Below are positions 44,693 through 61,475 of a stretch of DNA of 64,000 bases, in pieces. The translations under genes were made by a program, and so were the position numbers. The notes under the pieces are model-generated. The model was not told the DNA's origin and ran no database searches. It was given only the letters and a program-made list of their open reading frames with translations. The stretch comes from an uncultured Gammaproteobacteria bacterium (GTDB lineage Bacteria; Pseudomonadota; Gammaproteobacteria; Pseudomonadales; Azotimanducaceae), in NCBI GenBank assembly GCA_913050215.1, contig CAJXBG010000005.1, positions 1 to 64,000 on the forward strand. The letters are read 5' to 3'. Within the stretch, counting starts at the first letter, position 1; each line of letters begins with the position of its first letter.

Positions 44693-45748
44693 TCACTCGT
44701 ACTTTAAGTGCTCTCTTGCCGTCTCAGGATCACACGGCGAGTGAACGAAGGCCCTGTCTGCTCGCTTGTCGTAGACGCCATACAACATCAGCGGCGCGGC
44801 AAGGAATCTCGGATCATCAACCTGGATAGAAATCTGCATGCGCATACCCTGATTGGTCATCCGGTAACGCTCAATCACGCGTTTCTCCGCACTTGAATCA
44901 ACACCTTCTGCGATGCCCCAGGTCGTGGGTATAAAACGGGACGTGTTTACTACCAGCACACCTCCTTTGTCTTCGAAATGCCCAGTTGATACACCGACTT
45001 TGCTTGGCTGTTTATCTTTGGCTAAACGCGCATCTAGGTATATCGTTCTGTTTTCGGCTGGCGTAATGGCCTGCTCTTTTTCTATCTCGATACGGTCAGG
45101 ATAGCGGGTCCAACGATAACCATAAACATACAGTGGTAAATTGGGGATGCCGCGGCTCTGACAATTAAACTCTGGATCATCCAGTGGATCGTAGTTTTTC
45201 ACCATGCGTTTACCCTCAACGTTGAGGGGATAATTGTCAAAATTCGGCGCACTCGAAACCAACACACTTCTTAGCGAACGAACATAAGCCCAGTTACCTG
45301 AAAAATCCGATGACGGCTGGACCAACGGCGGTATTTTCGGCTTGCCTAAATCGGAAAGCGATACGGCTTCAGGAGGCGGCGTTCGGAAAGGATAAAAACT
45401 TATCCCATCAGCACGGGTAAAGTGATCAATCAGTCCATTCTTCTTTGCCGGGTTTCTGTTAGGGCTGAACACCGCGGTCACACGCGTTCCAACCTGAATA
45501 GAATCTTCTTTCCAACCGTGATTTAGCATGCCGGATACCGAGTGACCTTCCAGCACCCAAGTACCTGAGTTTCCTTCAGCGTCTACACCCTCAAGATTAA
45601 TAAAAATATGTGGGTTTCGCCATTTGACCCGAACAACCTCGCCCTTAACTTCTACTTTCCGTTTCAGATCTACCGTTGCTCTTGAATGGTGAGCAAAGCA
45701 ATCCAGATGAATAAAACTCAACACAAGCAGGCAAGTAAGTCGCAACAA
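44693..45748 (-). CDS. Secreted DUF6152-like protein, copy 1
   Basis: The 351-residue protein has a signal peptide predicted to be cut after CFA, so the mature chain starts HHSRATVDL. The N-terminal domain reads VKGEVVRVKWRNPHIFINLE, typical of DUF6152. A second conserved region near 145-330 includes DFSGNW and IERYRMTNQGMRMQISIQV. Copies 2 and 3 in this window share both regions. The start is a TTG at 45748 with AGAGGA six bases upstream. It lies 58 bases after hpaH in the same direction and is probably the last gene of the hpaE-D-F-H transcript. Function is unknown; it should be periplasmic or outer-surface. Confidence 0.8.
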   Translation of the reverse strand: MLRLTCLLVLSFIHLDCFAHHSRATVDLKRKVEVKGEVVRVKWRNPHIFINLEGVDAEGNSGTWVLEGHSVSGMLNHGWKEDSIQVGTRVTAVFSPNRNPAKKNGLIDHFTRADGISFYPFRTPPPEAVSLSDLGKPKIPPLVQPSSDFSGNWAYVRSLRSVLVSSAPNFDNYPLNVEGKRMVKNYDPLDDPEFNCQSRGIPNLPLYVYGYRWTRYPDRIEIEKEQAITPAENRTIYLDARLAKDKQPSKVGVSTGHFEDKGGVLVVNTSRFIPTTWGIAEGVDSSAEKRVIERYRMTNQGMRMQISIQVDDPRFLAAPLMLYGVYDKRADRAFVHSPCDPETAREHLKYE

Positions 45749-45806: not shown

Positions 45807-46607
45807 CTAGACAAAGTTTACGTTGATGGCTCCAAGCGCGCCATAATCTGCGAAGATATGATCGCCGGCTTTCACCGGTACTGGTCGAGTAAAAGAGCCA
45901 GACAGAATAATCTGACCGGGTTCCAGAGCAATGCCATGCGGCGCAAACCGCTTGCATACCCAGCGTATACCATGTGCCGGGTGACCCATCACCGCAGCAC
46001 CTAGACCGGTATCCTCAATGTCATCATTCTGATATAAAAGCGCGCCTGACCACTTAAGATCTATCTCATCAGGTGCAACTTTTTTACCGCCGCAGATAAT
46101 GCCAGCATTTGCTGCGTTGTCAGCTATCGTGTCAAACACGTTTCGTGTATATCCCGTTTCGGGGTCAACCCTCATACTGCGCGCTGAGATGAGTTCAAGC
46201 GCTGGTTGCACATATTCAGTGGCATCCATGACCTCTTCTATCGAAACATCTTCACCGAAAAGTCGCTTCTTCATCACAAACGCAAACTCGGACTCAATAC
46301 GTGGGTCCAAAAAGTCTGCAGCAGTTATTTCACACTGATCGGGGAACAACATTGCATCTGTGAGGACACCATAGTCAGGGGTTGTGATATTCATCGCAAC
46401 TTGCATGGTTCGTGAGGTCAATCCAATTTTATATCCAATGACTTTTTCACCGTCTCCAAGTCTCCGGTCAATCCATGCTTTTTGAATGGCATAGGCATCA
46501 TCCATGTCAAGATCGAAAGACATTGTTAGCGCTCTGATCTGCGTTTGATCTTTCTCTGCGCGATAAAGTCGATTAGCCGCATCAGCTATCTGTTCTGGAC
46601 TTAGCAT
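45807..46607 (-). CDS. hpaH: 2-Oxo-hept-4-ene-1,7-dioate hydratase (HpaH)
   Basis: This 266-residue member of the 2-keto-4-pentenoate hydratase/decarboxylase group adds water to 2-oxohept-ene-dioate in homoprotocatechuate meta-cleavage. Diagnostic blocks are AYAIQKAWIDRRL, KVIGYKIGLTSRTMQ, PDYGVLTDAM, the metal ligands in DPRIESEFAFVMKK (Glu pair) and GHPAHGIRWV. It follows hpaF with a 1-base gap, and AGGAA before its ATG lies inside the hpaF end. Its length equals E. coli HpaH (267). Confidence 0.93.
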   Translation of the reverse strand: MLSPEQIADAANRLYRAEKDQTQIRALTMSFDLDMDDAYAIQKAWIDRRLGDGEKVIGYKIGLTSRTMQVAMNITTPDYGVLTDAMLFPDQCEITAADFLDPRIESEFAFVMKKRLFGEDVSIEEVMDATEYVQPALELISARSMRVDPETGYTRNVFDTIADNAANAGIICGGKKVAPDEIDLKWSGALLYQNDDIEDTGLGAAVMGHPAHGIRWVCKRFAPHGIALEPGQIILSGSFTRPVPVKAGDHIFADYGALGAINVNFV

Positions 46608-46608
46608 A

Positions 46609-46977
46609 TTAAAAATTCCTGTTATTGAACTTTACGCTTTCTTCAAGCTCACGCATTTCAAATGAAACAGTGACAGGCTGACTCGCCATCAGCGGCTCAA
46701 GGTGCGTCAGTAAAATTTTCCAGAACATTTCAGCCGCACGCATTCTAGTTGCTTCATCACGACCTCGTCCGACCTTCATACTAAGGTTAAGAAAACCTTT
46801 CGCCGGATCTCCATCTGCAACTCGAAAGTCTTCACATTTCATCGCCCTGCTTCGCATACCTGCCATTGGAAATATGTCTGTTTCGGCAGCCTTTTCATGC
46901 ATTTTTTTCATCAAGCCTTGTAAGTCCAAACGCGTCGCCGGTAGGTTCGCGGAGTACTCGTATATAAAATGTGCCAT
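46609..46977 (-). CDS. hpaF: 5-Carboxymethyl-2-hydroxymuconate delta-isomerase (HpaF)
   Basis: The 122-residue trimeric isomerase of the tautomerase superfamily shifts the double bond of 5-carboxymethyl-2-hydroxymuconate. MAHFIYEYSANL matches the family start, including the catalytic N-terminal segment (Pro1 is replaced by Ala in this subfamily of sequences, as MAH rather than MPH). RAMKCEDFRVADGDP and GFLNLSMKVGRGRD follow the E. coli pattern. It lies between hpaD (53-base gap) and hpaH (1-base gap). The Ala in place of the usual Pro after Met is unusual and deserves checking, since Pro1 is the general base in related tautomerases. Confidence 0.88.
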   Translation of the reverse strand: MAHFIYEYSANLPATRLDLQGLMKKMHEKAAETDIFPMAGMRSRAMKCEDFRVADGDPAKGFLNLSMKVGRGRDEATRMRAAEMFWKILLTHLEPLMASQPVTVSFEMRELEESVKFNNRNF

Positions 46978-47030
46978 GACGCTTCCTGTTCGTTCTAATT
47001 CGTCAATTTAATGAGAGTCTTTTCAACCGT

Positions 47031-47894
47031 TCAATCGATCATCGGCAGCACGGGAAATTCCGCATTAATCTGCCCGGTTCCCGAACTGCCAAAATATGGA
47101 CTGATAACTTCAACCTTACCCTCATACTGATCCCAGCCCAGTGCGCCCAGTAACATCGCCGTGTCGTGCATAAAGCCCTCGCCATGACACTTATCAGCGT
47201 ATTCAGGCAACATTTCTGTAAAACGCTGCCAGTCGCCGTTTTGCCACATTTCAACGACCCGGTGATCAAAGTCCTCTAGAAAGGGTGACCACACGTTGTG
47301 CAGAAATTTGTCAGCGGTACCATTCTGTGCAAACCGGTGCGAAAGTGAACCCGATGCAAATATTGCCACCTTACCATCATAGTCATTTTCTATCGCAGAC
47401 CGCAGCGCCCTGCCCATCGTGACACTATCTTGTAAGTCATGGACCGTCAGTAAAGCGGCGATCGACACAACGTTAAAATGTCGATCCTCATTCATATATC
47501 GCATGGGTACAAGGCTGCCATATTCCAGCGTCAGACTCGTATCATGATGCGCGCGCATGTGGACCCCTGCTTCAGTGACGGCTTTCGCGATTGATTCCCC
47601 CAGCGCCGGGTTGCCATCATATTCATAGGGCAAGTTTTTAATAAAGTGGGGCAGTTCGTTACTGGTGTAGACGCCCTTGAAGTGAGGCGCATTATTAATG
47701 TGGTAGCCCGAGTTCACCAACCAGTGCGTGTCAAATACGACAATCGTATCAACACCAAGCGCACGACAACGTTTTGATATCTCGCGGTGACCGCTAATCG
47801 CGTGCTCTCTACACCCCTTATGTGGACCGTCCATCTCGGACAAATACATCGAGGGTACATGTGTAATTTTTGCCGCGTAAGCGAGTTCACCCAT
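47031..47894 (-). CDS. hpaD: 3,4-Dihydroxyphenylacetate 2,3-dioxygenase (HpaD)
   Basis: The 287-residue extradiol dioxygenase of the LigB fold (class III) opens the ring of homoprotocatechuate. AAKITHVPSMYLSEM carries the first His ligand, VVFDTHWLVNSGYHINN the second region, and ASGSLSHRF with LEYGSLVPMRYM complete the active-site pattern of E. coli HpaD. The ATG at 47894 is preceded by AAGGAG with a 7-base spacer; an in-frame TTG two codons earlier is disregarded. It lies 15 bases after hpaE. Confidence 0.93.
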   Translation of the reverse strand: MGELAYAAKITHVPSMYLSEMDGPHKGCREHAISGHREISKRCRALGVDTIVVFDTHWLVNSGYHINNAPHFKGVYTSNELPHFIKNLPYEYDGNPALGESIAKAVTEAGVHMRAHHDTSLTLEYGSLVPMRYMNEDRHFNVVSIAALLTVHDLQDSVTMGRALRSAIENDYDGKVAIFASGSLSHRFAQNGTADKFLHNVWSPFLEDFDHRVVEMWQNGDWQRFTEMLPEYADKCHGEGFMHDTAMLLGALGWDQYEGKVEVISPYFGSSGTGQINAEFPVLPMID

Positions 47895-47909
47895 CGTCAA
47901 TCTCCTTAA

Positions 47910-49427
47910 CTATCGGCCGAGTACCGGCACATTGTGTAGGTCATGAGCAACACACACATTTTTTGTTTCCATATAAAAATCAAAACTGAAGTCACCACCA
48001 TCGCGACCGATACCGCTCGCTTTCATACCGCCAAAAGGTGATGGCAAGTTTCGATTATTTTCCGAGTTAAACCAAAGCATGCCAGCTTCAAGATTTTTTG
48101 CCAAACGCATAGTTCGGCCAACATCTTGCGTCCATACGTAACCCGCAAGACCATAGGGCGTATCGTTCGCCATATTTACCGCATCTTCTTCAGTGTCAAA
48201 AGACATCGCGGTTAGAACAGGACCAAATATTTCTTCTCTGGAAACTCTCATACTATTGTCAGCTTCAGTAAAAAGTGTCGGACAGATATAGTTTCCGGCA
48301 CCCAACTCCTCCATTGCCCGCCCACCCACTGCAGTCGTGGCACCATCGGCTTGCGCTATCTCCATATAGCTCATGACTTTTCGGAAGTGCTCCTGGCTCA
48401 CCACGGGCCCTACTTCCGTATCAGGATCAAGAGGATGCCCCACCCTCAAATTTTCTACCCTAGCGATTAACGCCGACATAAACTCTGCTTCGATACCCTT
48501 TTGGACCAGTAGTCTTGAGCTGGAAGTACAGCGTTGGCCGTTCAGACTGTAGAGCATAAACACAACGGCATCGAGGGCACGATTAAAGTCGGCATCATCA
48601 AAGACAATCACCGGGTTTTTGCCACCTAACTCAAAATGCAGTCGTTTTAGGGTTGGCGCCGCCTGACGCATAATGTGTGATCCGGTCGCACTTTCACCCA
48701 CGAGCGCGACCGCCTTTATCGCGGGATGCTCAGTCAACCTTTTTCCTACCGTTTCACCAAAACCATTAACCGTGTTCAGTACCCCATCAGGAATCCCTGT
48801 CTCCTGAGCGACTTCTGCCAATAAATTCGCGGTAAGAGGAGACATTTCTGCAGGTTTGTGGACGACCGTGCAACCCGCCGCAAGCGCCGGGGCAATTTTC
48901 CATGTTGACAACATGAAAGGCGTGTTCCAGGGCGTGATCACACCCACGGGACCAACTGGCGTTCGCATGGTGTAGTTCGTATGCACATCCTGATAAAGCG
49001 CTTGACCATTCACCGCTTCAGGTGCCTTGTCAGCAAAGAAGCGAAAATTATCAGCACCACGAAGGGCCGCTTGTTTCATAAACCGAATGGGCTGACCACA
49101 GTCCATAGACTCAATCAGTGCAATCTCCTCAGCGCGCGCAGCAATGTTGTCTGCGAACTGATTCAACAGCTTTTTCCGCGCCGCGCCGGGCATATCTCGC
49201 CAACCAGCAAATGCAACTCGGGCAGCTTCACAGGCCCGGTCCATATCCTCTTCCGTACCGCTGACGACTTCACCCAGCGAACTGTTGTCTACTGGTGACA
49301 AGTTCTGAAAAGTTTCAGCGTGAGCTGGCGTGTCAAATCGGCCGTTGATGTAATGACCCGTAATCTTGTCACTGAATTTCTTCAGGTAGGTTTGGGCCTT
49401 GCCAAGATTTACCTCATGTTCCGACAT
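47910..49427 (-). CDS. hpaE: 5-Carboxymethyl-2-hydroxymuconate semialdehyde dehydrogenase (HpaE)
   Basis: The 505-residue NAD aldehyde dehydrogenase has GVITPWNTPFMLSTWKIAPALAAG (NAD entry), the catalytic Glu in FELGGKNPV and the catalytic Cys in LNGQRCTSSSRL. EIFGPVLTAMSF and SPFGGMKASGIGRDGG occur in the C-terminal half. The HpaE assignment rests on these plus position as first gene of the hpa operon. The ATG at 49427 has AGGA about 8 bases upstream. The frame remains open to 49787, but that extension is translated from an 11-bp tandem repeat and is not part of the protein. Confidence 0.93.
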   Translation of the reverse strand: MSEHEVNLGKAQTYLKKFSDKITGHYINGRFDTPAHAETFQNLSPVDNSSLGEVVSGTEEDMDRACEAARVAFAGWRDMPGAARKKLLNQFADNIAARAEEIALIESMDCGQPIRFMKQAALRGADNFRFFADKAPEAVNGQALYQDVHTNYTMRTPVGPVGVITPWNTPFMLSTWKIAPALAAGCTVVHKPAEMSPLTANLLAEVAQETGIPDGVLNTVNGFGETVGKRLTEHPAIKAVALVGESATGSHIMRQAAPTLKRLHFELGGKNPVIVFDDADFNRALDAVVFMLYSLNGQRCTSSSRLLVQKGIEAEFMSALIARVENLRVGHPLDPDTEVGPVVSQEHFRKVMSYMEIAQADGATTAVGGRAMEELGAGNYICPTLFTEADNSMRVSREEIFGPVLTAMSFDTEEDAVNMANDTPYGLAGYVWTQDVGRTMRLAKNLEAGMLWFNSENNRNLPSPFGGMKASGIGRDGGDFSFDFYMETKNVCVAHDLHNVPVLGR

Positions 49428-49440
49428 CGTTTCTGTCCTG

Positions 49441-49481
49441 TTTTGCTTTTGTTTTGCTTTTGTTTTGCTTTTGTTTTGCTT
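49441..49481. repeat. 11-bp tandem repeat in the hpaE leader
   Basis: TTTTGCTTTTG (plus strand) occurs three times in perfect tandem plus an 8-base partial copy. On the hpaE transcript it is an A/C-rich, unstructured CAAAACAAAAG array ending just before the ribosome site. The 11-bp period favours slippage. It does not resemble a CRISPR array. Confidence 0.9.
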
Positions 49482-49499
49482 CGAACTTGAATATTTCTG

Positions 49500-49573
49500 T
49501 AACATGTTAATCATTTTATCCAACATTATCTGAAAATTCAGCCAGAAAAATGTGTAATATACATAACAGGTTA
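49500..49573. promoter_or_regulatory. Divergent hpaE/hpaG control region with paired TAAC-N2-GTTA sites
   Basis: TAACATGTTA (49500-49509, perfect palindrome) and TAACAGGTTA (49564-49573) lie 64 bp apart. Each follows a -10-like hexamer by 3 bases: TAAAAT on the minus strand (49513-49518) reading to hpaE, and TAATAT on the plus strand (49555-49560) reading to hpaG. Between the two promoters is CTGAAAATTCAG (49530-49541), where weak -35 boxes would fall. This layout suits a MarR-type repressor, and hpaR is the second gene of the rightward unit. Assignment to HpaR is inference. Confidence 0.55.
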
Positions 49574-49590
49574 ACTTATAAGGTATCAGT

Positions 49591-50463
49591 ATGCGATTTC
49601 TCTCATTTGCAAAAGGGGACACCCCATCAGCCAAAACGTCATGGGGCGCTATTACCGAGGAGGGCATCATTGATTTGGGTAGCAGAATGCACTGTGATTT
49701 CAAGCAAGCCCTGACATCGCGTCGACTTGAGGAAGCAAAGCTATTGGCTGCAGAACTATCACCTGACACAGATGTGGCGGACATCATCTATCTTCCTCCT
49801 GTTGCGAACCCGGAGAAGATCGCCTGCATCGGCGTGAATTACGCAAATCGAAACGCAGAGTACAATGATGGCTCCGAAGCTCCTAAATTTCCCAGCCTCT
49901 TCATGCGCACGCCAGATTCACTGGTCGCACATGGCGACAACCTGCTCCGTCCGCCTGAATCCAGACAGCTGGATTACGAAGGCGAAATAGCCGTAATCAT
50001 TGGCAAGGAAGGTCATCGTATCGCCGAGGAAGATGCCTACGACTTCATTGCCGGACTAACAATAATGAACGAGGGGACAATTCGCGACTGGCTGCGACAC
50101 TCGAAATTTAACGTTACTCAGGGTAAAAATTTTTATCATTCAGGCAGCATCGGTCCATGGATGGTCACAGCAGACGAGTTCTCTCCGGAAATCTTCGAAA
50201 ACATGACAGTGAAAACAAGGGTGAATGGTGAAGAGCGGCAGAATGATACTACCGCAAACATGATGTTTCCTATCAAATACCAGATCGCCTATATGTCGCA
50301 GTTTTATAATTTCAAACCCGGAGACGTTATCGCTACCGGAACGCCTAATGGCGCCGGTGCTCGATTTGACCCACCCATTTACCTAAAACCAGGTGATGTC
50401 GTGGAGGTTGAAGTTGAAGGTGTTGGCATATTGTCCAACGAGGTAATTGATGAAGTTGTCTGA
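49591..50463 (+). CDS. hpaG: Fumarylacetoacetate-hydrolase-family isomerase/decarboxylase (HpaG)
   Basis: This 290-residue single-domain FAH-fold enzyme has KIACIGVNYANRNAEYN, SLFMRTPDSLVAHGDN, the metal ligands in LDYEGEIAVIIGKEG, TIMNEGTIRDWLRH and the C-terminal GDVIATGTPNGAG. In the hpa pathway HpaG decarboxylates 5-oxopent-3-ene-1,2,5-tricarboxylate and isomerises the product. E. coli HpaG is a 429-residue two-domain fusion; here only one domain is encoded and no second hpaG-like gene is near. AAGG precedes the ATG by 7 bases. hpaR follows after 12 bases. Confidence 0.88.
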   Translation: MRFLSFAKGDTPSAKTSWGAITEEGIIDLGSRMHCDFKQALTSRRLEEAKLLAAELSPDTDVADIIYLPPVANPEKIACIGVNYANRNAEYNDGSEAPKFPSLFMRTPDSLVAHGDNLLRPPESRQLDYEGEIAVIIGKEGHRIAEEDAYDFIAGLTIMNEGTIRDWLRHSKFNVTQGKNFYHSGSIGPWMVTADEFSPEIFENMTVKTRVNGEERQNDTTANMMFPIKYQIAYMSQFYNFKPGDVIATGTPNGAGARFDPPIYLKPGDVVEVEVEGVGILSNEVIDEVV

Positions 50464-50475
50464 CGAGAATTTTTA

Positions 50476-50970
50476 ATGGCCGACTCAGCTGAACACCCCC
50501 TAAGAGGCTTTGACCGCTCCCTGCCGATGGCACTTCTCAGGGCGCGGGAAGCTGTCATGAAAAACTTCGTTCCTTCGCTGCGTGAAAACGGTTTGTCCGC
50601 GCAACAATGGCGGGTGATCAGAGCCCTGCATGAAAACGAAGGTCTCGACATCACAGAATTAGCCGACCGGTGTTTTCTTTTGATGCCCAGCCTGTCACGC
50701 ATTATCCAAAACCTCGAAAAAAGAGCATTGGTCAGTCGAATACAGTCAAGCATTGACAACCGACGCTCAGTCATCTCAATTACGACGAAAGGCAAAGTTC
50801 TTTTCAATGAGATAGCGCCCAAATCAGTCGAGCGGTACAACCTAATCACGGAAAAATTTGGCTACGGGAAACTTGAACTGCTGTATGAACTGCTTGATGA
50901 ATTGATCGAAAAGATTGAAGTTGACGAACAGGCAGAACAGAGCCGGAGCACAAAAGATGAATCAAAATAA
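50476..50970 (+). CDS. hpaR: MarR-family homoprotocatechuate regulator (HpaR)
   Basis: The 164-residue dimeric winged-helix regulator has an N-terminus, RSLPMALLRAREAVMKNFVPSLR, highly specific for HpaR. GLSAQQWRVIRAL begins the winged helix; the recognition helix lies around LLMPSLSRIIQNLEKRAL and the wing around SSIDNRRSVISITTKGK. Known HpaR proteins repress the hpa meta-cleavage operon until homoprotocatechuate is present. The gene is inside the rightward unit behind hpaG, which implies autoregulation through the paired sites upstream. Confidence 0.93.
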   Translation: MADSAEHPLRGFDRSLPMALLRAREAVMKNFVPSLRENGLSAQQWRVIRALHENEGLDITELADRCFLLMPSLSRIIQNLEKRALVSRIQSSIDNRRSVISITTKGKVLFNEIAPKSVERYNLITEKFGYGKLELLYELLDELIEKIEVDEQAEQSRSTKDESK

Positions 50971-50985
50971 AAAAACTAAAACGGG

Positions 50986-52332
50986 GTGCATACCATTACT
51001 TCCAAGCCAGTAAATATTAATGATCTGATTGATCACGGAAAGTTCTCATTTCGGCAGATTCTGATTGTCTTGCTTTGCCTTGTCTTCAACATGGTCGACG
51101 GTTTTGACATCACTGCCATGGCTGTGACGGCACACCAGATTGGCGAGGATATGCAACTTAGTGAGGATAAGCTGGGCCTGGTGTTCAGTTTCTCCCTTGC
51201 AGGGATGATGTTGGGTGCGATGTTTCTTGCTGCACTCTCTGATGTCATTGGACGACGAACAATGATCATCTTCACCCTTACCTTAGTCGGGGCAACGGTC
51301 CTTTTAACCGCAAGTGTGAACTCTCTGCCGGCATTGATACTGCTTAGATTCATCAGCGGTCTTGGCGCCGGCGCAATGCTTGCCAGTGTCGCGACCCTAG
51401 CATCCGAGTATAGCCCTGAGAAATTTCGTGCAATGGCTGTCACGGCTGTCACGGCAGGTTACCCGCTAGGCGCTATGACTACGGGTCTTGTTGCGAGTAG
51501 CGTGGTGCCCGAATTTGGCTGGCAGGGAATGTTCATCGCTGGTGGCAGCGCAACTCTTTTATTGGCACTCATCGCATTTTTCATGATTCCAGAATCCTTG
51601 TACTTTCTTTGCAAAAAACAACCTGATGACGCACTCCAAAGAGTGAACAGGATTCTTCAAATATTCAAGGTTCAATCGCTTCAGCACCTGCCATCAATTG
51701 AGGATACCGGCGGCGCAACAGAGGCTGATAGACAGAACATTTATCAAAAAATGCTCACGCTACTAACACCTGAGTTCCGCCGATCAACACTCACGCTCTG
51801 GGCAACCTTCTTTCTTTGTATCAGCACGCTATATTTTCTAATGAGCTGGACACCCAAATTGATCATTAACCTTGGCTACTCGGCAGATGCAGGCAACCTG
51901 GCTTTCACCCTGTTTAACTTTGGTGGTGTCCTAGGGATATTTATACTGGGATATTTGGCATCAAAGTGGTCGCTCTCAACCTTAATCAGCATATTTGCCA
52001 TCACATCTGCTGTATTTATGTGGGCATTTGCAGGGGCAGTTTCTCTGGATTTCAATCAGACAAACCTGATGCTGCTTATTTTTATTATCGGCATCAGCCT
52101 GCAGGGAGGGTACACCGGTATGTATGCCGTTGCGGCGAAAATTTACCCTATCGAAATCAGAAGTACAGGCGTAGGTTGGGCTATCGGCCTGGGTAGATTT
52201 GGTGCAGTGCTCGGTCCGGGAATCGCCGGTTACATGATTGCATCCGGGTTACCCATAACCATCAACTTTATGGTTTTTGCGATCCCAATGTTGATCGGCG
52301 GCATATTCGCCTATCAGTTGAGAGTGCGATAA
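50986..52332 (+). CDS. MFS aromatic-acid transporter (AAHS type)
   Basis: This 448-residue major facilitator has the aromatic acid:H+ symporter pattern. FNMVDGFDITAMAV carries the conserved D-G-x-D of helix 1. LAALSDVIGRRTMII is the loop 2-3 motif, ASEYSPEKFRAMAVTA a mid-protein loop and AAKIYPIEIRSTGVGWAIGLGRFGA the family motif near helix 10. It lies 15 bases after hpaR and probably imports a hydroxyphenylacetate. The likely start is a GTG at 50986 with a poor ribosome site. It abuts the convergent cytochrome gene with no gap. Confidence 0.87.
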   Translation: MHTITSKPVNINDLIDHGKFSFRQILIVLLCLVFNMVDGFDITAMAVTAHQIGEDMQLSEDKLGLVFSFSLAGMMLGAMFLAALSDVIGRRTMIIFTLTLVGATVLLTASVNSLPALILLRFISGLGAGAMLASVATLASEYSPEKFRAMAVTAVTAGYPLGAMTTGLVASSVVPEFGWQGMFIAGGSATLLLALIAFFMIPESLYFLCKKQPDDALQRVNRILQIFKVQSLQHLPSIEDTGGATEADRQNIYQKMLTLLTPEFRRSTLTLWATFFLCISTLYFLMSWTPKLIINLGYSADAGNLAFTLFNFGGVLGIFILGYLASKWSLSTLISIFAITSAVFMWAFAGAVSLDFNQTNLMLLIFIIGISLQGGYTGMYAVAAKIYPIEIRSTGVGWAIGLGRFGAVLGPGIAGYMIASGLPITINFMVFAIPMLIGGIFAYQLRVR

Positions 52333-52767
52333 TTACTGCTGCGCCGCCTCGACGATTGCTTTTAATGCGGGGGCATCGTCAACTTTAGGTGGTGTGTCCC
52401 TAAAGGTTTTTATGTAAGCGTAGATGTCGAGTGCCTGCTGATCGGACAAACTTGACGCAGGATAGTGCGGCATTTTTTGCGAGGGCAACGGCGGATTTAG
52501 CTCACTTCGCGCCCTGATAAACGCAAGATAAACCGCTTCACTTGTCATAATCGCACTAACATCATTCGCTAAATTGTGTTTGCCAATGCCGTTATAACCA
52601 TGACAGGCAAAACAACCATGATCGTAATAGAGTTGTTTACCTGAACTCTGCACAACCCGAGCTTCCTCGTCACTTTTCAGATCGTCACTGGCTATTGCGG
52701 ACAACACGATGGAAGCACCAACCATACAAAAACCAACGCGTAACATAAACTTGATTTTGTTCATCAT
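52333..52767 (-). CDS. c-Type cytochrome (class I, monohaem), exported
   Basis: The 144-residue protein has an N-terminal signal segment (FMLRVGFCMVGASIVLSAIA, about 7-26). One haem site, CFACH, holds Cys52, Cys55 and axial His56, followed by GYNGIGKHNLAND. The likely distal Met is in PSQKMPHYPAS, and the end reads LSDQQALDIYAYIKTF. This is a standard small periplasmic electron carrier. Its start overlaps the stop of the ThDP-enzyme gene (AAGG serves the ATG at 52767 or 52764), so the two are translationally coupled and the cytochrome is the obvious partner of that enzyme. Confidence 0.9.
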   Translation of the reverse strand: MMNKIKFMLRVGFCMVGASIVLSAIASDDLKSDEEARVVQSSGKQLYYDHGCFACHGYNGIGKHNLANDVSAIMTSEAVYLAFIRARSELNPPLPSQKMPHYPASSLSDQQALDIYAYIKTFRDTPPKVDDAPALKAIVEAAQQ

Positions 52768-52769
52768 CC

Positions 52770-54722
52770 TCACCTTGGCTGCGTAAGCACGTCTATGAGG
52801 TAAGGTTCTCCTCGCTTCACCGCGTCCACCCCACGTTGTAATGCAGCGACCATTTCATCTGGATCGCTAATGGGGCCTTCACTTTTCATGCCATACCCCT
52901 CCGCCAGTTTTGCGTAATTGATATAGGGATCCCTGAAGGTCGTGCCTATATGCGCTCTATCAGTACCTCTGCCTCTGACACCAGCCATGTATTGAACGTA
53001 CATAAGCTCCATATGCCAGGCACGGTTGTTGTGCATAATTGTCAACATTGGTAGCTGGTGGTGGACAGCGCTCCACACGGTCCCCGGCATAAAATTGAAA
53101 TCGCCGTCACCCTGAATATTGATGACAATGCGGTCTCGGCTTCTCGCAGCCAGCGCTGCACCGGCAGACGCTCCCAAACAATAACCCAAAGCCGCGGCTG
53201 GGTACTGACCTAGGTAACTGTATGGTTTGTCGTGATCCCAGAGTTCCCTATGATGTCGGCCCGTAAAGTTCGAAGGCGAGGCAAGACACCAATCAAGGTC
53301 TTTTATCATCGGCCAAAGCTCAGCATACATACGTGCCAGACTGACCGGTGTGCCATGCCAGCCTGGCCGTTTTTTCTCAATCGCTTTATGCAGCGAATTT
53401 ATTCGAGCGCTTCGATTTTTTTCGCTGTGTTTTTCAATTCTCTCTACGATTACACTGTTAAGTGACGCCGTTAATTGAGATTCAATCGCGTTGATAATCA
53501 AAGGTAAACTGGCCTCAGCATCCTCAGCAATCAAAGTATCGGGGATAGGCCTTCGCTTCAGGTTGGGATTTTCTTTCCAGCCAAAACCAATCCCAGCAGC
53601 ATCGCGGTCTGTTATTGATTTGAGATGCGGACCGGTAATGGATACATCTGCTGCAGCTATTTCCAAACCAAGATGAAAGTCGTAATTCTTATCCTGACCC
53701 ACACCCACAAGGGGATGACGCTGCGGGAAGCTCATCGGACCAAATGTTGCCATTGAGTCGACCGAAGCACCGACAAGTTCAGCCAAAGTAACAGCATGAT
53801 CGATCCCGGCCTGTGAACGTAATCTTCCCACAGAGATGTGCGGATTTTTGGCTTGCAGAAGCGCTTTAGCGATAATGGTTGCCTGAGACTTGCCGATCGA
53901 TCTAACGACTGGCGCAGAGTAACGCGGTACCTGAAGATCGCCTGCCTCTTCTTTCTGGATCTCTGAGTTAAGTACCACCAAGGTCGGTGCACAGGGCGGC
54001 GTAATAGACTGACGATACGCCTCCTGCAACGCAACCAACGTATCTTCGAGCGTCTTGGGTTGCGCGTCCCATTTTGTATAAGGGCGCACCAACCCTGCTA
54101 TATCTTCACCGGTATGAACCTTTAGAAAATTGTTTTCATCATTTCCCGCGAGAATAATCATCGGCGTGTGGCCGTGGTATGCCTGGTAAATCGCCATCGA
54201 TGCGTTTTGTAAACCGACAGTACCCTGCAGCAGCGCACACATGGGTTTGCCCTCGGATCGACCGTAACCATGCGCCATATCAACCGCCGCACCCTCGTGC
54301 ATTGCAGAGATGACCTCGGGCATATGATTTGGGCGCTCACCATAATTGATGAGTGATTCTTGCAAACCTTCGAAGCTGGAACCTGGATTGAGTGCAACAT
54401 ACTCAATTTCAAGATCACGCAGCACCTGCACCATCAGGTCGGAAGCCGCACGCCGCACAGTCGCCAAAGGTTCCGGTGGCGATGAACTGCCTACTTCCCG
54501 TGCCATTTTTTTTGCATCAGGTGGCGTTGAGGCAGGTCTCGAGGTTTCCGTCACTGAATTTTCGACACCAAATGCAACAGCGGGTAAAACTGTGCTTGCG
54601 CCACCCGCAACGCTTGCGCCGATAAACCCCCGGCGACTGATGCCACCGCGCTCTGCTTCTAGTTCAACGCCTGCTTCGCTTGGCGTTTTACCTGAAACTA
54701 TCCCTGATTCTTTACTGGTCAT
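52770..54722 (-). CDS. Tat-exported thiamine-diphosphate-dependent enzyme
   Basis: This is a 650-residue ThDP enzyme of the acetolactate synthase/benzoylformate decarboxylase fold with an N-terminal Tat signal. S-R-R-G-F-I at 29-34 is followed by a hydrophobic stretch and VLPAVAFG. The catalytic Glu143 (SAMHEGAAVDMAHGYGR) lies in the Pyr domain. The PP domain carries GDG (538-540), 24 residues, then NN (565-566), the full ThDP/Mg motif. A linker domain spans about 270-420. Such enzymes are normally cytosolic; export as a folded holoenzyme through Tat is unusual. The substrate is unknown. It is co-transcribed with the cytochrome c gene and divergent from two DUF6152 genes. Confidence 0.9.
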   Translation of the reverse strand: MTSKESGIVSGKTPSEAGVELEAERGGISRRGFIGASVAGGASTVLPAVAFGVENSVTETSRPASTPPDAKKMAREVGSSSPPEPLATVRRAASDLMVQVLRDLEIEYVALNPGSSFEGLQESLINYGERPNHMPEVISAMHEGAAVDMAHGYGRSEGKPMCALLQGTVGLQNASMAIYQAYHGHTPMIILAGNDENNFLKVHTGEDIAGLVRPYTKWDAQPKTLEDTLVALQEAYRQSITPPCAPTLVVLNSEIQKEEAGDLQVPRYSAPVVRSIGKSQATIIAKALLQAKNPHISVGRLRSQAGIDHAVTLAELVGASVDSMATFGPMSFPQRHPLVGVGQDKNYDFHLGLEIAAADVSITGPHLKSITDRDAAGIGFGWKENPNLKRRPIPDTLIAEDAEASLPLIINAIESQLTASLNSVIVERIEKHSEKNRSARINSLHKAIEKKRPGWHGTPVSLARMYAELWPMIKDLDWCLASPSNFTGRHHRELWDHDKPYSYLGQYPAAALGYCLGASAGAALAARSRDRIVINIQGDGDFNFMPGTVWSAVHHQLPMLTIMHNNRAWHMELMYVQYMAGVRGRGTDRAHIGTTFRDPYINYAKLAEGYGMKSEGPISDPDEMVAALQRGVDAVKRGEPYLIDVLTQPR

Positions 54723-54902: not shown

Positions 54903-55931
54903 ATGTTCTCTTCGAAATCTCACTTCTTCAACCAGCTACAACGATTGTTCTACAAAACCGCCGGCATCACTTTGGTGTCATTGATACCCGTCGCAACTAC
55001 CTACGCGCATCATTCCCATGCGAATCTTGATAGAACAAAAACCGTTACAAACAGAGGGACTGTCACTGCATACGGTTGGCGAATGCCGCATGCGTTTATC
55101 AAGGTAGCGGCACCAAACGCACAGGGAAAAATTGTCAAATACAGCATCGAAATGCTGCACCCACCCGCCATGCTAGAACGCGGTTGGACAAAAACCACCT
55201 TAACAAAGGGAGACATCGTTTCTTGGGGTGGAGCGCCTGATAAAAACCCTAATCGCTATTACACAGGACTGACCTGGCTCGAAAAGTCGGATGGATCTCG
55301 GCTGACGTTAAAGCTGCAACCCGAAGTCGTTGTACCTTCAAAAGATTTCTCGGGCATATGGTCTCGCGACCTTAGTGTGCCGTTACGCTATTTACCACCA
55401 AGCGACTGGCCATACACCCCCAAAGCGCGTATGCAGGTTGAAAACTTCAAAGACAGCCAAAACCCACTGCTCGATTGCGTTGCATCAGGCCCACCCAAAG
55501 CGACGCTCTTGCCCTACCCCATACAGATAGTACGCCCCAACGATCAGACTTTGCTGATCAACTACGAGGGTCGGAATATTCCTCGCACGCTCCATTTCAA
55601 TCAGGATTTGGCCCCGGGCAAACCCTCAATCAAGGGCCACTCAATCGCCCGGTTTGAAGGCGATACACTGATTGTAGAAACCAACAATTTTATTGATGAT
55701 CGTTGGGGAATCTATACAGGTATCGACTCTAGCAGCAATAAACATTTGATTGAGCGAATGACGCTAGCTGAAGACGGTTTAACCATCGACATCGATATGG
55801 TCGTGACCGACCCCGTTTTTTTCACAGAACCAGTCACGATAAAACATAAGTTAAGAAAGATTGCAGACAGAGAATTGGTCAAGGCTAACTGCACCGCAGA
55901 AAGTGCAAAAATGTTTCTGGAAGGTCCTTGA
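54903..55931 (+). CDS. Secreted DUF6152-like protein, copy 2
   Basis: The 342-residue protein has signal peptide KTAGITLVSLIPVATTYA (about 19-36), predicted to leave a mature N-terminus HHSHANLDR. The DUF6152 block GTVTAYGWRMPHAFIKV follows, then a second region from about 160 with DFSGIW, GRNIPRTLHF and LIERMTLAEDGLTIDIDMVV. It ends with a single Cys in KANC. GGAG precedes the ATG by 6 bases. Together with copy 3 (51-base gap) it forms a rightward unit divergent from the ThDP enzyme. Related to the copy in the hpa operon. Confidence 0.85.
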   Translation: MFSSKSHFFNQLQRLFYKTAGITLVSLIPVATTYAHHSHANLDRTKTVTNRGTVTAYGWRMPHAFIKVAAPNAQGKIVKYSIEMLHPPAMLERGWTKTTLTKGDIVSWGGAPDKNPNRYYTGLTWLEKSDGSRLTLKLQPEVVVPSKDFSGIWSRDLSVPLRYLPPSDWPYTPKARMQVENFKDSQNPLLDCVASGPPKATLLPYPIQIVRPNDQTLLINYEGRNIPRTLHFNQDLAPGKPSIKGHSIARFEGDTLIVETNNFIDDRWGIYTGIDSSSNKHLIERMTLAEDGLTIDIDMVVTDPVFFTEPVTIKHKLRKIADRELVKANCTAESAKMFLEGP

Positions 55932-55982
55932 ATGCGCCCCAAAAACGATTAACGACAACCAAAAATATCGCAGGAGTCCAAT

Positions 55983-57224
55983 GTGACATTCAACCCCCGC
56001 CTTATCACAACAGTATTATTCCTGGTGTTCGCGGGCAACGCGATGGCCCATCATGCTGCGACAGTCTTCGACCGGAAACGCTCTATTCAAAAAACGGGCA
56101 CCGTCGATAAATTTATTTACAGAAATCCTCACCTAATTATTAACATGTCTGTCAATGAACCCGGCAAAGAAACCGTGACATGGAAAATCGAAGGTCAAAG
56201 CATTGCCGCGTTAAAGCGAATGGGATTCAACAGAGACTCCATTCACACGGGCGATAAAATTACCGTAAAAATGCGGCCGCTGCGATCAGGTGAACCCGGG
56301 GGTCTACTACAAGGATTGATTGGCGCTGATGGTAAGGCGTATTCAATGGACGGTACAGACCTCCAAGAGAACTACGCTAAAAAGGAACGAGTCAGACAAG
56401 CGGCGCCGGGCTTGATGGCGTACGTCCCTCCTCCAGCCGGTGAAACCTGGCAGATGCGTGAAGAGAAAACCCGACCGACAGAATTACCGATTATATCTGA
56501 GGGACTGGCACCCGGCGATCATGCCACCACCGGCGTTGCAGCCGGAGCGCTAGATCCGGATAACTTAAATAAGCGTCGGGCACCCACCCCATTCGATATG
56601 ACAGGCGTCTGGCAATATCGCGGCGAAGATGACTACCGCGCTAATTACGGATCATACGAGTTTAAACCCACACCAGAACTCACACCAAAAGCTGCAGAGT
56701 ACAATAAGCTCTATCAGGAAAAAGCCAAAGAGGGCGTTAGATTTGATGACCCCGCTACCCAGTGTTATCCCGCTGGTATGCCTCGAATCATGACCCGCTA
56801 TGGTTCTTTAATGATGCTGCAACATCCTACTGCCATATTTATGGTGTCGCGCCTCAGTAATGAATACAGAGTCATTTACCTTGATGGCCGGGCTCGTATC
56901 CCTGAAAGCAATCTTGATCGTAACTGGGGAGGAGAATCTCTAGGCCACTGGGAAGGCAACACCTTGGTCGTTGAGACGGAAGGATTTACCGACGAAAATC
57001 ATATGATTCAAGCCGGTATCAAGGCGAGTAAGAAACTCAAGATGACGGAACGTTATCGTATGATTAACGACAACAATACCCTCGTTATGGAGCTCACCAT
57101 GACTGACCCGGACAACTGGGTCGGAGAGTGGAAACACGTTAAGTTTCGCGATCGGGTCCTGAGATCTGACGTTCGTGAAGCTAACTGTATTTATAGTGAC
57201 AACCTTGCATTACCCGGTCGCTAA
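55983..57224 (+). CDS. Secreted DUF6152-like protein, copy 3
   Basis: This 413-residue protein starts at a GTG (55983) with AGGAG six bases upstream. The signal peptide TTVLFLVFAGNAMA should leave HHAATVFDRKR at the mature N-terminus. The DUF6152 block is GTVDKFIYRNPHLIINM; a longer middle section holds DMTGVWQYRGEDDY. The C-terminal region has YLDGRARIPESN, HWEGNTLVVETEGF and TERYRMINDNNTLVMELTM, matching copies 1 and 2. The W-E-G-x-T-L-V-V-E-T block recurs in this group. It ends 2 bases before the convergent ligB-like gene. Confidence 0.85.
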   Translation: MTFNPRLITTVLFLVFAGNAMAHHAATVFDRKRSIQKTGTVDKFIYRNPHLIINMSVNEPGKETVTWKIEGQSIAALKRMGFNRDSIHTGDKITVKMRPLRSGEPGGLLQGLIGADGKAYSMDGTDLQENYAKKERVRQAAPGLMAYVPPPAGETWQMREEKTRPTELPIISEGLAPGDHATTGVAAGALDPDNLNKRRAPTPFDMTGVWQYRGEDDYRANYGSYEFKPTPELTPKAAEYNKLYQEKAKEGVRFDDPATQCYPAGMPRIMTRYGSLMMLQHPTAIFMVSRLSNEYRVIYLDGRARIPESNLDRNWGGESLGHWEGNTLVVETEGFTDENHMIQAGIKASKKLKMTERYRMINDNNTLVMELTMTDPDNWVGEWKHVKFRDRVLRSDVREANCIYSDNLALPGR

Positions 57225-57226
57225 AT

Positions 57227-58051
57227 TCACTCGACCATATACAAAGTTGTAATACTGCAGGTTGTCGCATAGATTGGTATCGCTTCTGAAAACCAGATTT
57301 CTCCTGTCTGGTCTTCTGTGGCAGCAGCAACACATAATGAGGTACGCATCTCAAAAGCACCGGGGCCTGCCTCAGAGATGGTTTTTTCATCCGTATAAGC
57401 GAGCAATGCGTCCTTTCGCTTATGTATCAGCTGATCGAGTAAGACTTGATCCCAATCCTCATTGATCCGGCCAGAATCCGGGGTACAGGGCCAATGCGAA
57501 GTGCCTCCGGTGCCAATTAATGCAATTTTTTCAGGAGCAAGATCTATTGCTCTGCGCAGCGCTTTGCCAAGCTCCCAGGTCCGATGAAGCGGGCTTAGGG
57601 GCGGATTTTGGCAATTGATGTTCACCGGCACAATAGGCAAATCATACGCGGGCGTCAGGAAGTGAAGTGGCACAGACATGCCGTGATCAAATTTCCATTC
57701 CTGCGCGTAGCAAACATCAACGGTGTGCATGACCTCATTGATCAATCGTAGTGACAAATCGGGATTCGCCGGTATTTTAGTTCGTTTAATTTTGAGCCAG
57801 TCGGGATCCTCGATAGGTCCTTCATAAGCATCAGCCATACCGATCGAGTAAGTAGGCATATTGTCCATAAAAAAATTGGCAAAGTGTTCGGAGGACACCA
57901 TGACAAGCGCTTCTGTTCCTGTATCAATGAGCGCCTGTCGTTGACGCGCAAAAGCATCATGAAGTTGTTTCCGAGTTTCGGGCGCGGCCATCTCTGCGCG
58001 GGAAGTCATCCCTGGTGCATGACAGCAGGTACCTGCGTAAACTAGAGTCAT
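57227..58051 (-). CDS. LigB-like extradiol dioxygenase catalytic subunit
   Basis: The 274-residue class III extradiol dioxygenase is related to protocatechuate 4,5-dioxygenase beta subunit. YAGTCCHAPGM holds the first His, VSSEHFANFF the second region with the family's S-x-H motif, and GTGGTSHWP a third. KFDHGMSVPLHFLTP carries the catalytic His of the LigB group. Its ATG overlaps the ligA-like stop by 4 bases, so the subunits are coupled. It should cleave a catechol-type ring; the true substrate (protocatechuate, gallate or a lignin-type diol) is not defined by sequence. Confidence 0.88.
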   Translation of the reverse strand: MTLVYAGTCCHAPGMTSRAEMAAPETRKQLHDAFARQRQALIDTGTEALVMVSSEHFANFFMDNMPTYSIGMADAYEGPIEDPDWLKIKRTKIPANPDLSLRLINEVMHTVDVCYAQEWKFDHGMSVPLHFLTPAYDLPIVPVNINCQNPPLSPLHRTWELGKALRRAIDLAPEKIALIGTGGTSHWPCTPDSGRINEDWDQVLLDQLIHKRKDALLAYTDEKTISEAGPGAFEMRTSLCVAAATEDQTGEIWFSEAIPIYATTCSITTLYMVE

Positions 58052-58380
58052 AACGTCTCCTTGGTCGAAGTCGCGCCTTTGCCGTCAACCATCGCATAGA
58101 GGCCTGCGCGGACAGGACCATGCTTCTCTAAACCATCGCGCATGGCTTGAATGTATGCATCCCAGCTAAAACCGTTCATCGTCGCAAAATGCATTAAAAG
58201 CTGGCCATTAACGCCTAGCACGTACAGCAAACCGATATCGATAGCTCGAAGCGCACCTAACTCTTCTTCGCTCAAATCGTAATCCCCAACAACGGCACCC
58301 TGTTCCGTATCGAAACGCTCTTTGAGCGCAGGATCCCTGTTCAGGTTGTACAACAGTTTTTGTACGTAATAGAGACTCAT
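58048..58380 (-). CDS. LigA-like subunit of an extradiol dioxygenase
   Basis: This 110-residue all-helical protein is of the protocatechuate 4,5-dioxygenase alpha-subunit fold. YVQKLLYNLNRDPALKERF and LSEEELGALRAIDIGLLYVLGVNGQLLMHF match the helices that cap the beta-subunit active site. The ATG at 58380 follows AAGGA by about 10 bases; the frame is open further upstream, but that part lies inside the GST gene and is not coding. It is directly upstream of and coupled to the ligB-like gene. Confidence 0.87.
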   Translation of the reverse strand: MSLYYVQKLLYNLNRDPALKERFDTEQGAVVGDYDLSEEELGALRAIDIGLLYVLGVNGQLLMHFATMNGFSWDAYIQAMRDGLEKHGPVRAGLYAMVDGKGATSTKETL

Positions 58381-58414
58381 TTCTATCGATTCCTTTTCAT
58401 TTACGAGCGCGAGA

Positions 58415-59101
58415 CTATTCCCAAGGAACGATAATATTTCGATGCTTCCGTTCGATTGAGATAACACGTTGAACCGCAGGCCGCTGCCATACTTTTTTTG
58501 CAACCGCCTCCCAGTTGGGTCGTTCAGGCACCGACGAGATCCGGGCATCCGTTGTCCACAGATACATGACAAACAGGTAAGCATCAACGACAGAGAAATC
58601 AGCGCCCAACGACCATACCTGATCAGTCAGTAAACCCTCAACACGAGCAACCGCGCCCGCCAGATTATTCACGCCCTGCGCATTCACAGCATCATTTGCC
58701 ACCTGGCTTTCGCCCGCATAAGCAGCGGAGCGGAATATAGAGCGAATATAAGTATGCACACTACTCGATAAAAAGTTCATCCACTCATGCGCGCGATACC
58801 GACGGAAGTCGCCAGTAGGAGGCAAAAACTTGCCATCTCCAATGATATCTCCAAGAAACGTCAGAATTGCTTGGGTTTCCGTCAGTGTTTGTCCATCGAC
58901 AACCAACGCAGGCACCGTGCCCTTGGGGTTAATCGCCAAGTATTCGGTGGCATTGTTCTGCTTTGTCGGTAGATCAACCATTCGGCGCTCGTATACAAGA
59001 CCAGATTCCTCGAGCACGATATGCACCGCCAGTGAACAGGCACGCGGATAGTAATAGAAAATCAGTTGCTGGTTGCTTGGCATTGAGTTGAATGCGCTCA
59101 T
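58415..59101 (-). CDS. Glutathione S-transferase
   Basis: The protein has about 228 residues (237 from an ATG at 59128; neither start has a clear ribosome site). The thioredoxin-like domain opens with LIFYYYPRACSLAVHIVLEES, whose C-S-L-A segment is typical of beta-class GSTs. NPKGTVPALVVDGQTLTETQAILTFL is the cis-Pro and glutathione-gamma-Glu binding section. The helical domain has SLGADFSVVDAYLFV. It lies 34 bases upstream of the ligA-like gene in the same operon. The pairing recalls LigE/F/G glutathione-dependent ether cleavage beside ring cleavage in lignin-dimer catabolism, but that role is inference. Confidence 0.88.
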   Translation of the reverse strand: MSAFNSMPSNQQLIFYYYPRACSLAVHIVLEESGLVYERRMVDLPTKQNNATEYLAINPKGTVPALVVDGQTLTETQAILTFLGDIIGDGKFLPPTGDFRRYRAHEWMNFLSSSVHTYIRSIFRSAAYAGESQVANDAVNAQGVNNLAGAVARVEGLLTDQVWSLGADFSVVDAYLFVMYLWTTDARISSVPERPNWEAVAKKVWQRPAVQRVISIERKHRNIIVPWE

Positions 59102-59193
59102 ATTACCGTGTTCATAACGATATACCATGAACGGCCATCTATTGGAATTTTTCTCGCTACATTAGAAAGAGCCGGACAGCAGATAAGAACTCG

Positions 59194-60752: not shown

Positions 60753-61229
60753 TTAGGCAACCGCTTTGGCAACCGGCGCCTGGAGAATCCCGAGGCACGC
60801 AGCCGCAGCTTCCTGACCTTTAATCACGAAGTGCTCACGAAAAAATGCTTGCCTTCCTTCGCTCATGAAATCGTGCGGCGTTAACACACCTGAAAATACT
60901 GGCACACCAGTTTCCAACTGCACTTTCATCAAACCGTCAATCACTGCGGTTGCGACAAATTCATGCCGATAGATTCCGCCGTCGACAACCAAACCAGCGG
61001 CGACAATGCCCGCATACTCTTCAGTTTCAGCAAGCTGCTTAACGCGTAATGGAATTTCAAACGCACCGGGCACTTCAAAAACATCGACCTGCCGATCGTC
61101 CGATTTTGCTAAGGTGACAATAAAAGCATCACGGAACTCGTCAACGATATCGCGGTGCCAGCATGCCTGAACAAGTGCGATCTTCTTACGATTGGCGATT
61201 TCTGAGATGTTTGGATTAAATTGGGTCAT
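60753..61229 (-). CDS. ribH: 6,7-Dimethyl-8-ribityllumazine synthase, type II (RibH2)
   Basis: The 158-residue lumazine synthase catalyses the penultimate step of riboflavin synthesis. IALVQACWHRDIVDEF, FEVPGAFEIPLRVKQLA and GIYRHEFVA with the catalytic His follow the type II (decameric, Brucella RibH2-like) pattern rather than the usual icosahedral type I, which has FEVPGAFEIP but a different nucleotide loop. AAAGGA lies 8 bases before the ATG. It is isolated from other rib genes and preceded by an FMN riboswitch. In Brucella, RibH2 is likewise a second, riboswitch-controlled enzyme. Confidence 0.92.
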   Translation of the reverse strand: MTQFNPNISEIANRKKIALVQACWHRDIVDEFRDAFIVTLAKSDDRQVDVFEVPGAFEIPLRVKQLAETEEYAGIVAAGLVVDGGIYRHEFVATAVIDGLMKVQLETGVPVFSGVLTPHDFMSEGRQAFFREHFVIKGQEAAAACLGILQAPVAKAVA

Positions 61230-61312: not shown

Positions 61313-61475
61313 ACCACCTTATCCTCATAACCAGACTTTAACTGTCGGCTCTGGAATCTCACCAGATCTGCTTGTCCTTCTACCTTGGTAGAAGCGCCCG
61401 CGGGCTACACAACGATTACTACTCATTGCGATTACCGCCGGTGGGGACTTTCACCCCGCCCTGAGAATGGTCACA
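61313..61475 (-). ncRNA. FMN riboswitch (RFN element)
   Basis: Read leftward, the conserved RFN pieces occur in order: TCTCAGGGCGGGGTGAAAGT, CCCCACCGGCGGTAAT, AGCCCGCGGGCG, a variable hairpin built on CTTCTACC/GGTAGAAG, GCAGATCTGGTGAGATTCC, AGAGCCGACAGT and AGTCTGGTTATGAGGATAA. These match the FMN aptamer core that senses flavin mononucleotide. The downstream gene, ribH, is in the expected class. Exact ends are approximate. Confidence 0.95.

Follow-up and report, generated by a model that had tools for sequence, protein, structure and literature searches.

What would a ThDP-dependent enzyme be doing outside the cytoplasm, in step with a cytochrome c? The question is raised by two adjacent genes on the minus strand of a 64,000-nucleotide stretch of DNA from an uncultured gammaproteobacterium (hereafter the window, meaning the whole stretch that was analyzed). 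One, at 52770..54722, encodes a ThDP-dependent enzyme of 650 amino acids that is predicted to be exported via Tat; the other, at 52333..52773, encodes a class I cytochrome c. To our knowledge, ThDP enzymes are cytoplasmic or organellar catalysts, and a search of open-access papers, itself weak evidence, returned no description of a periplasmic or Tat-exported ThDP enzyme, either alone or with a cytochrome. The best reading of the locus is a two-gene periplasmic ThDP:cytochrome c oxidoreductase module for aromatic 2-oxo acids, to which we assign a probability of roughly 0.55. Comparison of sequences lends support to the ThDP family, the Tat signal, the co-inheritance with a cytochrome, a shift in the active site, and a catabolic neighborhood.

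An earlier note on this DNA recognized a full ThDP enzyme from Glu143 and a GDG motif followed, after 24 residues, by NN, and its coordinates, strand, and motifs all proved correct. The protein is laid out as a Tat signal (residues ~1–55), a linker, and the ThDP domains (~91–650), which match TPP_enzyme_N (PF02776; 5.5e-20, 71.8 bits against a gathering score of 26.8) and TPP_enzyme_C (PF02775; 9.3e-23, 81.1 bits against 21.9). Both models are matched in 39/39 homologues. The Pfam scan gave no PF00205 match in the middle domain of the window protein. His142 immediately precedes Glu143, the ThDP N1′ glutamate, and G538-D-G540 is separated by 24 residues from N565-N566; Glu143, the GDG-24-NN arrangement, and the motif around them hardly vary among homologues. 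An AlphaFold model of moderate confidence (pLDDT 76.9) has low-confidence stretches at residues 568–572, covering His570 and Glu572, and at 589–598. Residues 91–650 of this model superimpose on benzoylformate decarboxylase (BFD) with Z 39.8 and an rmsd of 3.4 over 476 aligned residues. Benzoylformate decarboxylases are the nearest solved folds, with benzaldehyde lyase (BAL) and cyclohexane-1,2-dione hydrolase also among the matches; a choice among BFD, AHAS, BAL, and PQO types by structural score was abandoned, because the differences amount to only 1–3 Z. With domains, motifs, and fold in agreement, the window protein is a ThDP enzyme of the BFD/AHAS/PDC superfamily. The modeled fold would thus make it BFD type, yet it is not to be filed as a benzoylformate decarboxylase, scoring 151.5 bits against the curated model (NF005485), far below the cut-off of 493.

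The downstream partner had been described as a signal-peptide cytochrome c with one CFACH site, and so it appears: the protein has a hydrophobic N-terminus, predicted to be a Sec-type signal peptide, a PF00034 match (1.4e-9, 39.6 bits against 21.3), and a single haem site, GCFACHG. All 41 cytochrome homologues share CxxCHG, Arg85, and Met99-Pro100, and all have the hydrophobic N-terminal stretch. Met99, within MPHY, fits the role of a putative axial haem ligand, and the conserved pattern is that of a predicted His/Met class I electron carrier. By sequence, the nearest solved relatives are the cytochrome c subunits of bc1 complexes, and CcmF is encoded in this genome.

The junction between the genes reads CCAAGGTGAGGATGATGAAC. 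The TGA stop of the ThDP gene lies inside a ribosome-binding-like AAGGTGAGG, and the cytochrome may therefore start at a GTG or at ATGs 2–5 nt later. A 4-nt GTGA overlap of the genes requires the GTG, while the ATGs 2 and 5 nt past the ThDP stop have AAGGTGAGG-like sequence ahead of them and are start candidates of equal or higher likelihood. In most homologues the cytochrome begins −4 to +15 nt from the ThDP stop, which makes tight adjacency, rather than overlap, the conserved feature. Of the translational coupling proposed earlier, then, the adjacency holds across homologues, whereas the overlap depends on the GTG start and gives way to a short gap in most of them. Promoter and terminator scans gave nothing above shuffled expectation.

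The argument for export begins at the N-terminal stretch of the enzyme, SRRGFIGASVAGGASTVLPAVAFG, in which the motif S29-R-R-G-F-I34 is followed by an uncharged hydrophobic stretch; the twin-arginine codons, Arg30-Arg31, occupy 54630..54635 on the minus strand (residue 1 starts at 54722). TatC is encoded in this genome. How widely these features travel together was assessed from a scan of genome contigs, which recovered 34 relatives whose best segment was 53–80% identical, supplemented by more distant relatives from profile searches and plasmid records. In the resulting tree of 91 homologue rows, all Tat-bearing and all cytochrome-linked sequences fall in one clade of 42 rows (SH-aLRT 100), with 49 non-Tat cousins outside it. 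RRxF is present in 38/38 readable N-termini of the clade (33 by script and five by eye, the other four being cut off), and the Pfam TAT_signal model matches 13 of 39 aligned members. A CxxCH protein lies just downstream of the ThDP gene in 39 of the 42 rows. As for the others, the sequence of L014 stops at a contig edge, and in the tandem Acidobacteriota paralogues L020 and L035 the cytochrome gene immediately precedes the ThDP gene, a reading that is clear in L020 and less so in L035; no clade copy with readable flanks lacks an adjacent cytochrome c. Neither a Tat signal nor a cytochrome was found in any of the 49 cousins, and since the two co-occur across the whole clade, the pattern is not one of chance. 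Pairwise distances of enzyme and cytochrome correlate with r = 0.892, the best of 2000 permutations reaching 0.35, which shows co-inheritance of the two proteins, not contact.

The earlier note had called the SRRGFI motif and its hydrophobic stretch a Tat signal and looked to other genomes for retention of signal and pair together. Both are retained: no homologue with the same neighbors but without a Tat signal was seen in the 91-row tree, and the cytochrome neighbor, far from being peculiar to this genome, occurs throughout the 42-row clade. Because this conservation is without exception, and neither of these two counterexamples proposed in the note was seen, a periplasmic location and a functional enzyme–cytochrome pair are well supported on comparative grounds. 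Export of the enzyme from the cytoplasm is very probable, and joint action of the enzyme with its cytochrome only slightly less so. A reading of three sequences of Burkholderiales type (L086, L094, and L097) as Tat-less relatives at 50–54% identity was set aside; the value refers to a cytosolic query taken from L047, and the tree places the three among the cousins.

Members of the clade come from Gammaproteobacteria (Woeseiaceae and others), Acidobacteriota, a Caulobacteraceae bin, Caballeronia (C. zhejiangensis), and Novosphingobium (sp. KACC 22771), so that the module spans at least two phyla, with a patchy distribution in Proteobacteria and Acidobacteriota. Further Tat-bearing copies were rare: the samples of 398 genomes for the phylum and 350 for the class contained none, the 36 searched genomes of the same genus and family gave one (G008), and 150 genomes of another order gave three. 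Such rare, patchy spread would fit a module that passes whole from one lineage to another. Some loci have their own peculiarities. The second Tat-ThDP copies of L020 and L035 are 36–42% identical to the window protein and have their cytochrome upstream; the genes that follow are an MFS transporter from the aromatic-acid cluster and one of formate-THF ligase size. In Novosphingobium (L045, 9953–10665), two consecutive CxxCH proteins, rather than one, follow the ThDP gene. A contig labeled as a Klebsiella pneumoniae MAG (L031; MoH-23oct19-118) groups with gammaproteobacterial environmental bins and is probably a mislabeled bin.

How might such a pair work? The ThDP enzyme would fold and load ThDP/Mg in the cytoplasm, to be exported folded via Tat, while the cytochrome would leave via Sec and be supplied with haem by the Ccm system. 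Once in the periplasm, the enzyme would attack a 2-oxo acid, with an aromatic one (an arylpyruvate or arylglyoxylate) the likeliest candidate, and release CO2, a decarboxylation that we infer. The ThDP-enamine would then be oxidized by the adjacent His/Met cytochrome c in two one-electron steps, the carboxylic acid would leave, and two reduced cytochromes per turnover would feed a terminal oxidase. The arylacetate or arylcarboxylate product could then be imported and ring-cleaved, in the window by the neighboring Hpa pathway. There is chemical precedent for the central step: one-electron acceptors, ferricyanide for example, can oxidize the enamine that decarboxylation leaves on ThDP, and both pyruvate oxidase and pyruvate:ferredoxin oxidoreductase form ThDP radicals. 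By analogy, a dedicated cytochrome c could act as such an acceptor, and we consider it probable that the cytochrome accepts the electrons of this enzyme, passing from ThDP to haem. The earlier note had suggested periplasmic oxidative decarboxylation or acyl transfer; its location and pairing are backed by the comparative evidence, while for acyl transfer nothing specific was found.

The cytosolic cousins offer an instructive contrast. Those of Salipiger, Agrobacterium, and Roseivivax, annotated as "thiamine pyrophosphate-binding protein," belong to a related family with 27–30% identity to the window protein, but are without Tat signal or cytochrome and have a cytosolic aldehyde dehydrogenase as neighbor. 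Aldehyde dehydrogenase genes directly adjoin the cousin gene at Salipiger, Agrobacterium, Roseivivax, and Acidovorax loci and lie within 1.5 kb in at least eight of the 49 cousins, a count from under-sampled neighborhoods, as only ~1.5 kb of flank is visible for most others. In the favored reading, the cytosolic form would produce an aldehyde that a dehydrogenase oxidizes, while the exported form would give its electrons to a cytochrome. NAD is not expected in the periplasm, and a cytochrome in place of the dehydrogenase would therefore be a natural switch.

The same exported enzyme might instead be non-oxidative: a BFD-like decarboxylase or carboligase yielding an aldehyde or acyloin, with the cytochrome serving another periplasmic dehydrogenase that oxidizes the product. 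The closest solved folds are indeed non-oxidative benzoylformate decarboxylases, and one PQQ-domain protein occurs among the scanned neighbors. It is the cytochrome alone, however, that is conserved beside the ThDP gene, with no second dehydrogenase, and another enzyme as electron source would not easily account for an obligate one-to-one cytochrome partner. We consider this alternative unlikely, though the strongest of those weighed here.

Evidence on the substrate of the proposed oxidoreductase comes from the neighborhood. Convergent with the pair is an MFS transporter of the aromatic acid:H+ symporter family (50986..52332, plus strand; Pfam MFS_1; TIGR00895, 352 bits, short of the 418.55 cut-off), whose cluster recurs in 12 loci. 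On the same strand lie an HpaR-type MarR regulator of homoprotocatechuate degradation (50476..50970; TIGR02337, 155.9 bits, above 121.2) and an HpaG-like FAH-family protein (49591..50463; TIGR02303, 171.9 bits, below 276.4). The minus strand carries HpaE, 5-carboxymethyl-2-hydroxymuconate semialdehyde dehydrogenase (47910..49361; TIGR02299, 793 bits, above 638.35); HpaD, 3,4-dihydroxyphenylacetate 2,3-dioxygenase (47031..47900; TIGR02298, 464.9 bits, above 315.95); an HpaF-like 5-carboxymethyl-2-hydroxymuconate isomerase (46609..46977; PF02962, 1e-33, with NF011605 below its cut-off); and HpaH, 2-oxo-hept-4-ene-1,7-dioate hydratase (45807..46607; TIGR02312, 380.5 bits, above 351.5). The Hpa genes at 45807–50970 are a homoprotocatechuate meta-cleavage cluster; only five loci share it, related clusters occurring in L010, L011, L038, and L040, and a genome-wide search found no HpaB in this genome.

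On the other side, divergent from the pair, are two signal-peptide DUF6152 proteins (54903..57224, plus strand; PF19649 in both), followed by LigB- and LigA-like extradiol dioxygenase subunits and a glutathione S-transferase (57227..59128, minus strand; PF02900, PF07746, GST_N), all recurrent neighbors. The window holds three signal-peptide DUF6152 proteins (44693–45748, 54903–55931, and 55983–57224); the cluster that contains them lies near the exported enzyme in 14 loci, often with tandem copies, and the open-access literature yielded no paper on the family. In other lineages, LigB-type dioxygenases, glutathione S-transferases, DUF6152, or formate-THF ligase are found nearby. LigB-like genes occur near 12/42 Tat/cytochrome loci versus 0/9 cousin loci with long flanks, an association that is suggestive only. 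Many exported copies have no recognizable aromatic genes nearby. With aromatic genes near several lineages, nothing recognizable near many others, and HpaB absent, an aromatic 2-oxo acid is a reasoned guess at the substrate, and a tentative one. Elsewhere in the window are a P450 (33566–34819), a metallo-beta-lactamase-fold protein (29612–30451, plus strand; PF23023, Anti-Pycsar Apyc1, 129.6 bits, cut-off 50), and a lumazine-synthase-like gene (60753–61229) preceded by an FMN riboswitch (61315–61472, minus strand; RF00050, 93.9 bits against a gathering score of 66.2).

These neighbors also bear on a variant in which the same ThDP chemistry, again with cytochrome c as acceptor, oxidatively cleaves acyloins or 1,2-diketones (lignin-derived ones, for instance) instead of 2-oxo acids. 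LigB, glutathione S-transferase, and formate-THF ligase recall methoxylated aromatic catabolism, and the structural matches include benzaldehyde lyase and cyclohexane-1,2-dione hydrolase; structural scores, however, separate these families poorly (Z 39.8 versus ~38), and no diketone-indicating gene lies near the pair. It ranks as improbable, a little below the non-oxidative decarboxylase. Far less credible is a cytoplasmic enzyme whose RR motif is a mere anchor or non-functional, beside a functionally unlinked cytochrome gene: RRxF motifs can arise by chance, but this one marks 38/38 of the clade and 0/49 of the cousins, perfectly matching a cytochrome whose distances track those of the enzyme (r = 0.892).

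In the active site, just after NN, the exported clade reads NN-R-[AG]-[WY]-H-[QM]-E-x-M (31 sequences), and the cousins NN-x-S-[FYW]-[FGY]-N-D-E (eight sequences). His570 (NN+4) and Glu572 (NN+6) are present in 31/31 exported sequences, versus Phe/Gly/Tyr and Asp in the cousins, and in these alignments export coincides with the two changes. Counted from NN, we take Glu572 to correspond to Glu473 in Zymomonas pyruvate decarboxylase and to Leu461 in benzoylformate decarboxylase. The catalytic His70 of the latter aligns to Gln166 in the window protein, a position that is Gln in 8/31 (among them the window clade) and His in 23/31 exported homologues. Such departures from benzoylformate decarboxylase might suggest an exported scaffold or sensor without catalysis, the least credible alternative of all given the near-invariance of Glu143, GDG-24-NN, and the surrounding motif.

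If the oxidoreductase reading is right, thiamine chemistry reaches the periplasm and a one-electron protein acceptor joins the ThDP repertoire. The chances are about even that electrons of the ThDP carbanion pass straight to a dedicated cytochrome c, with no lipoamide, ferredoxin, flavin, or NAD in between, in what would be a new acceptor class and the first in the periplasm. The module would account for proteins of several bacterial classes annotated only as "thiamine pyrophosphate-binding protein." It suggests an undescribed oxidation of acids, probably aromatic, outside the cytoplasm, with electrons delivered directly to respiration, and possible use as an NAD-free module for aromatic oxidation.

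Among known systems, benzoylformate decarboxylase (MdlC) and other BFD/AHAS-type enzymes share the fold (Z 39.8, 24–25% identity), the ThDP glutamate, and GDG-x24-NN; the window enzyme differs in its Tat signal, 90-residue N-terminal extension, cytochrome partner, and His+4/Glu+6 after NN, and its clade in having Gln or His at the His70 position. PoxB and PQO (pyruvate oxidase, pyruvate:quinone oxidoreductase) belong to the same superfamily, PQO matching with Z 37.3, and likewise link 2-oxo acid oxidation to respiration. They are peripheral flavoproteins of the cytoplasmic side that reduce quinone, whereas the window enzyme is predicted to be exported and would use cytochrome c instead. Periplasmic quinoprotein dehydrogenases, such as methanol and polyvinyl alcohol dehydrogenase, are PQQ beta-propellers, unrelated in fold and cofactor, but as exported oxidases with their own adjacent class I cytochrome c gene they provide the works-like analogue of the pair.
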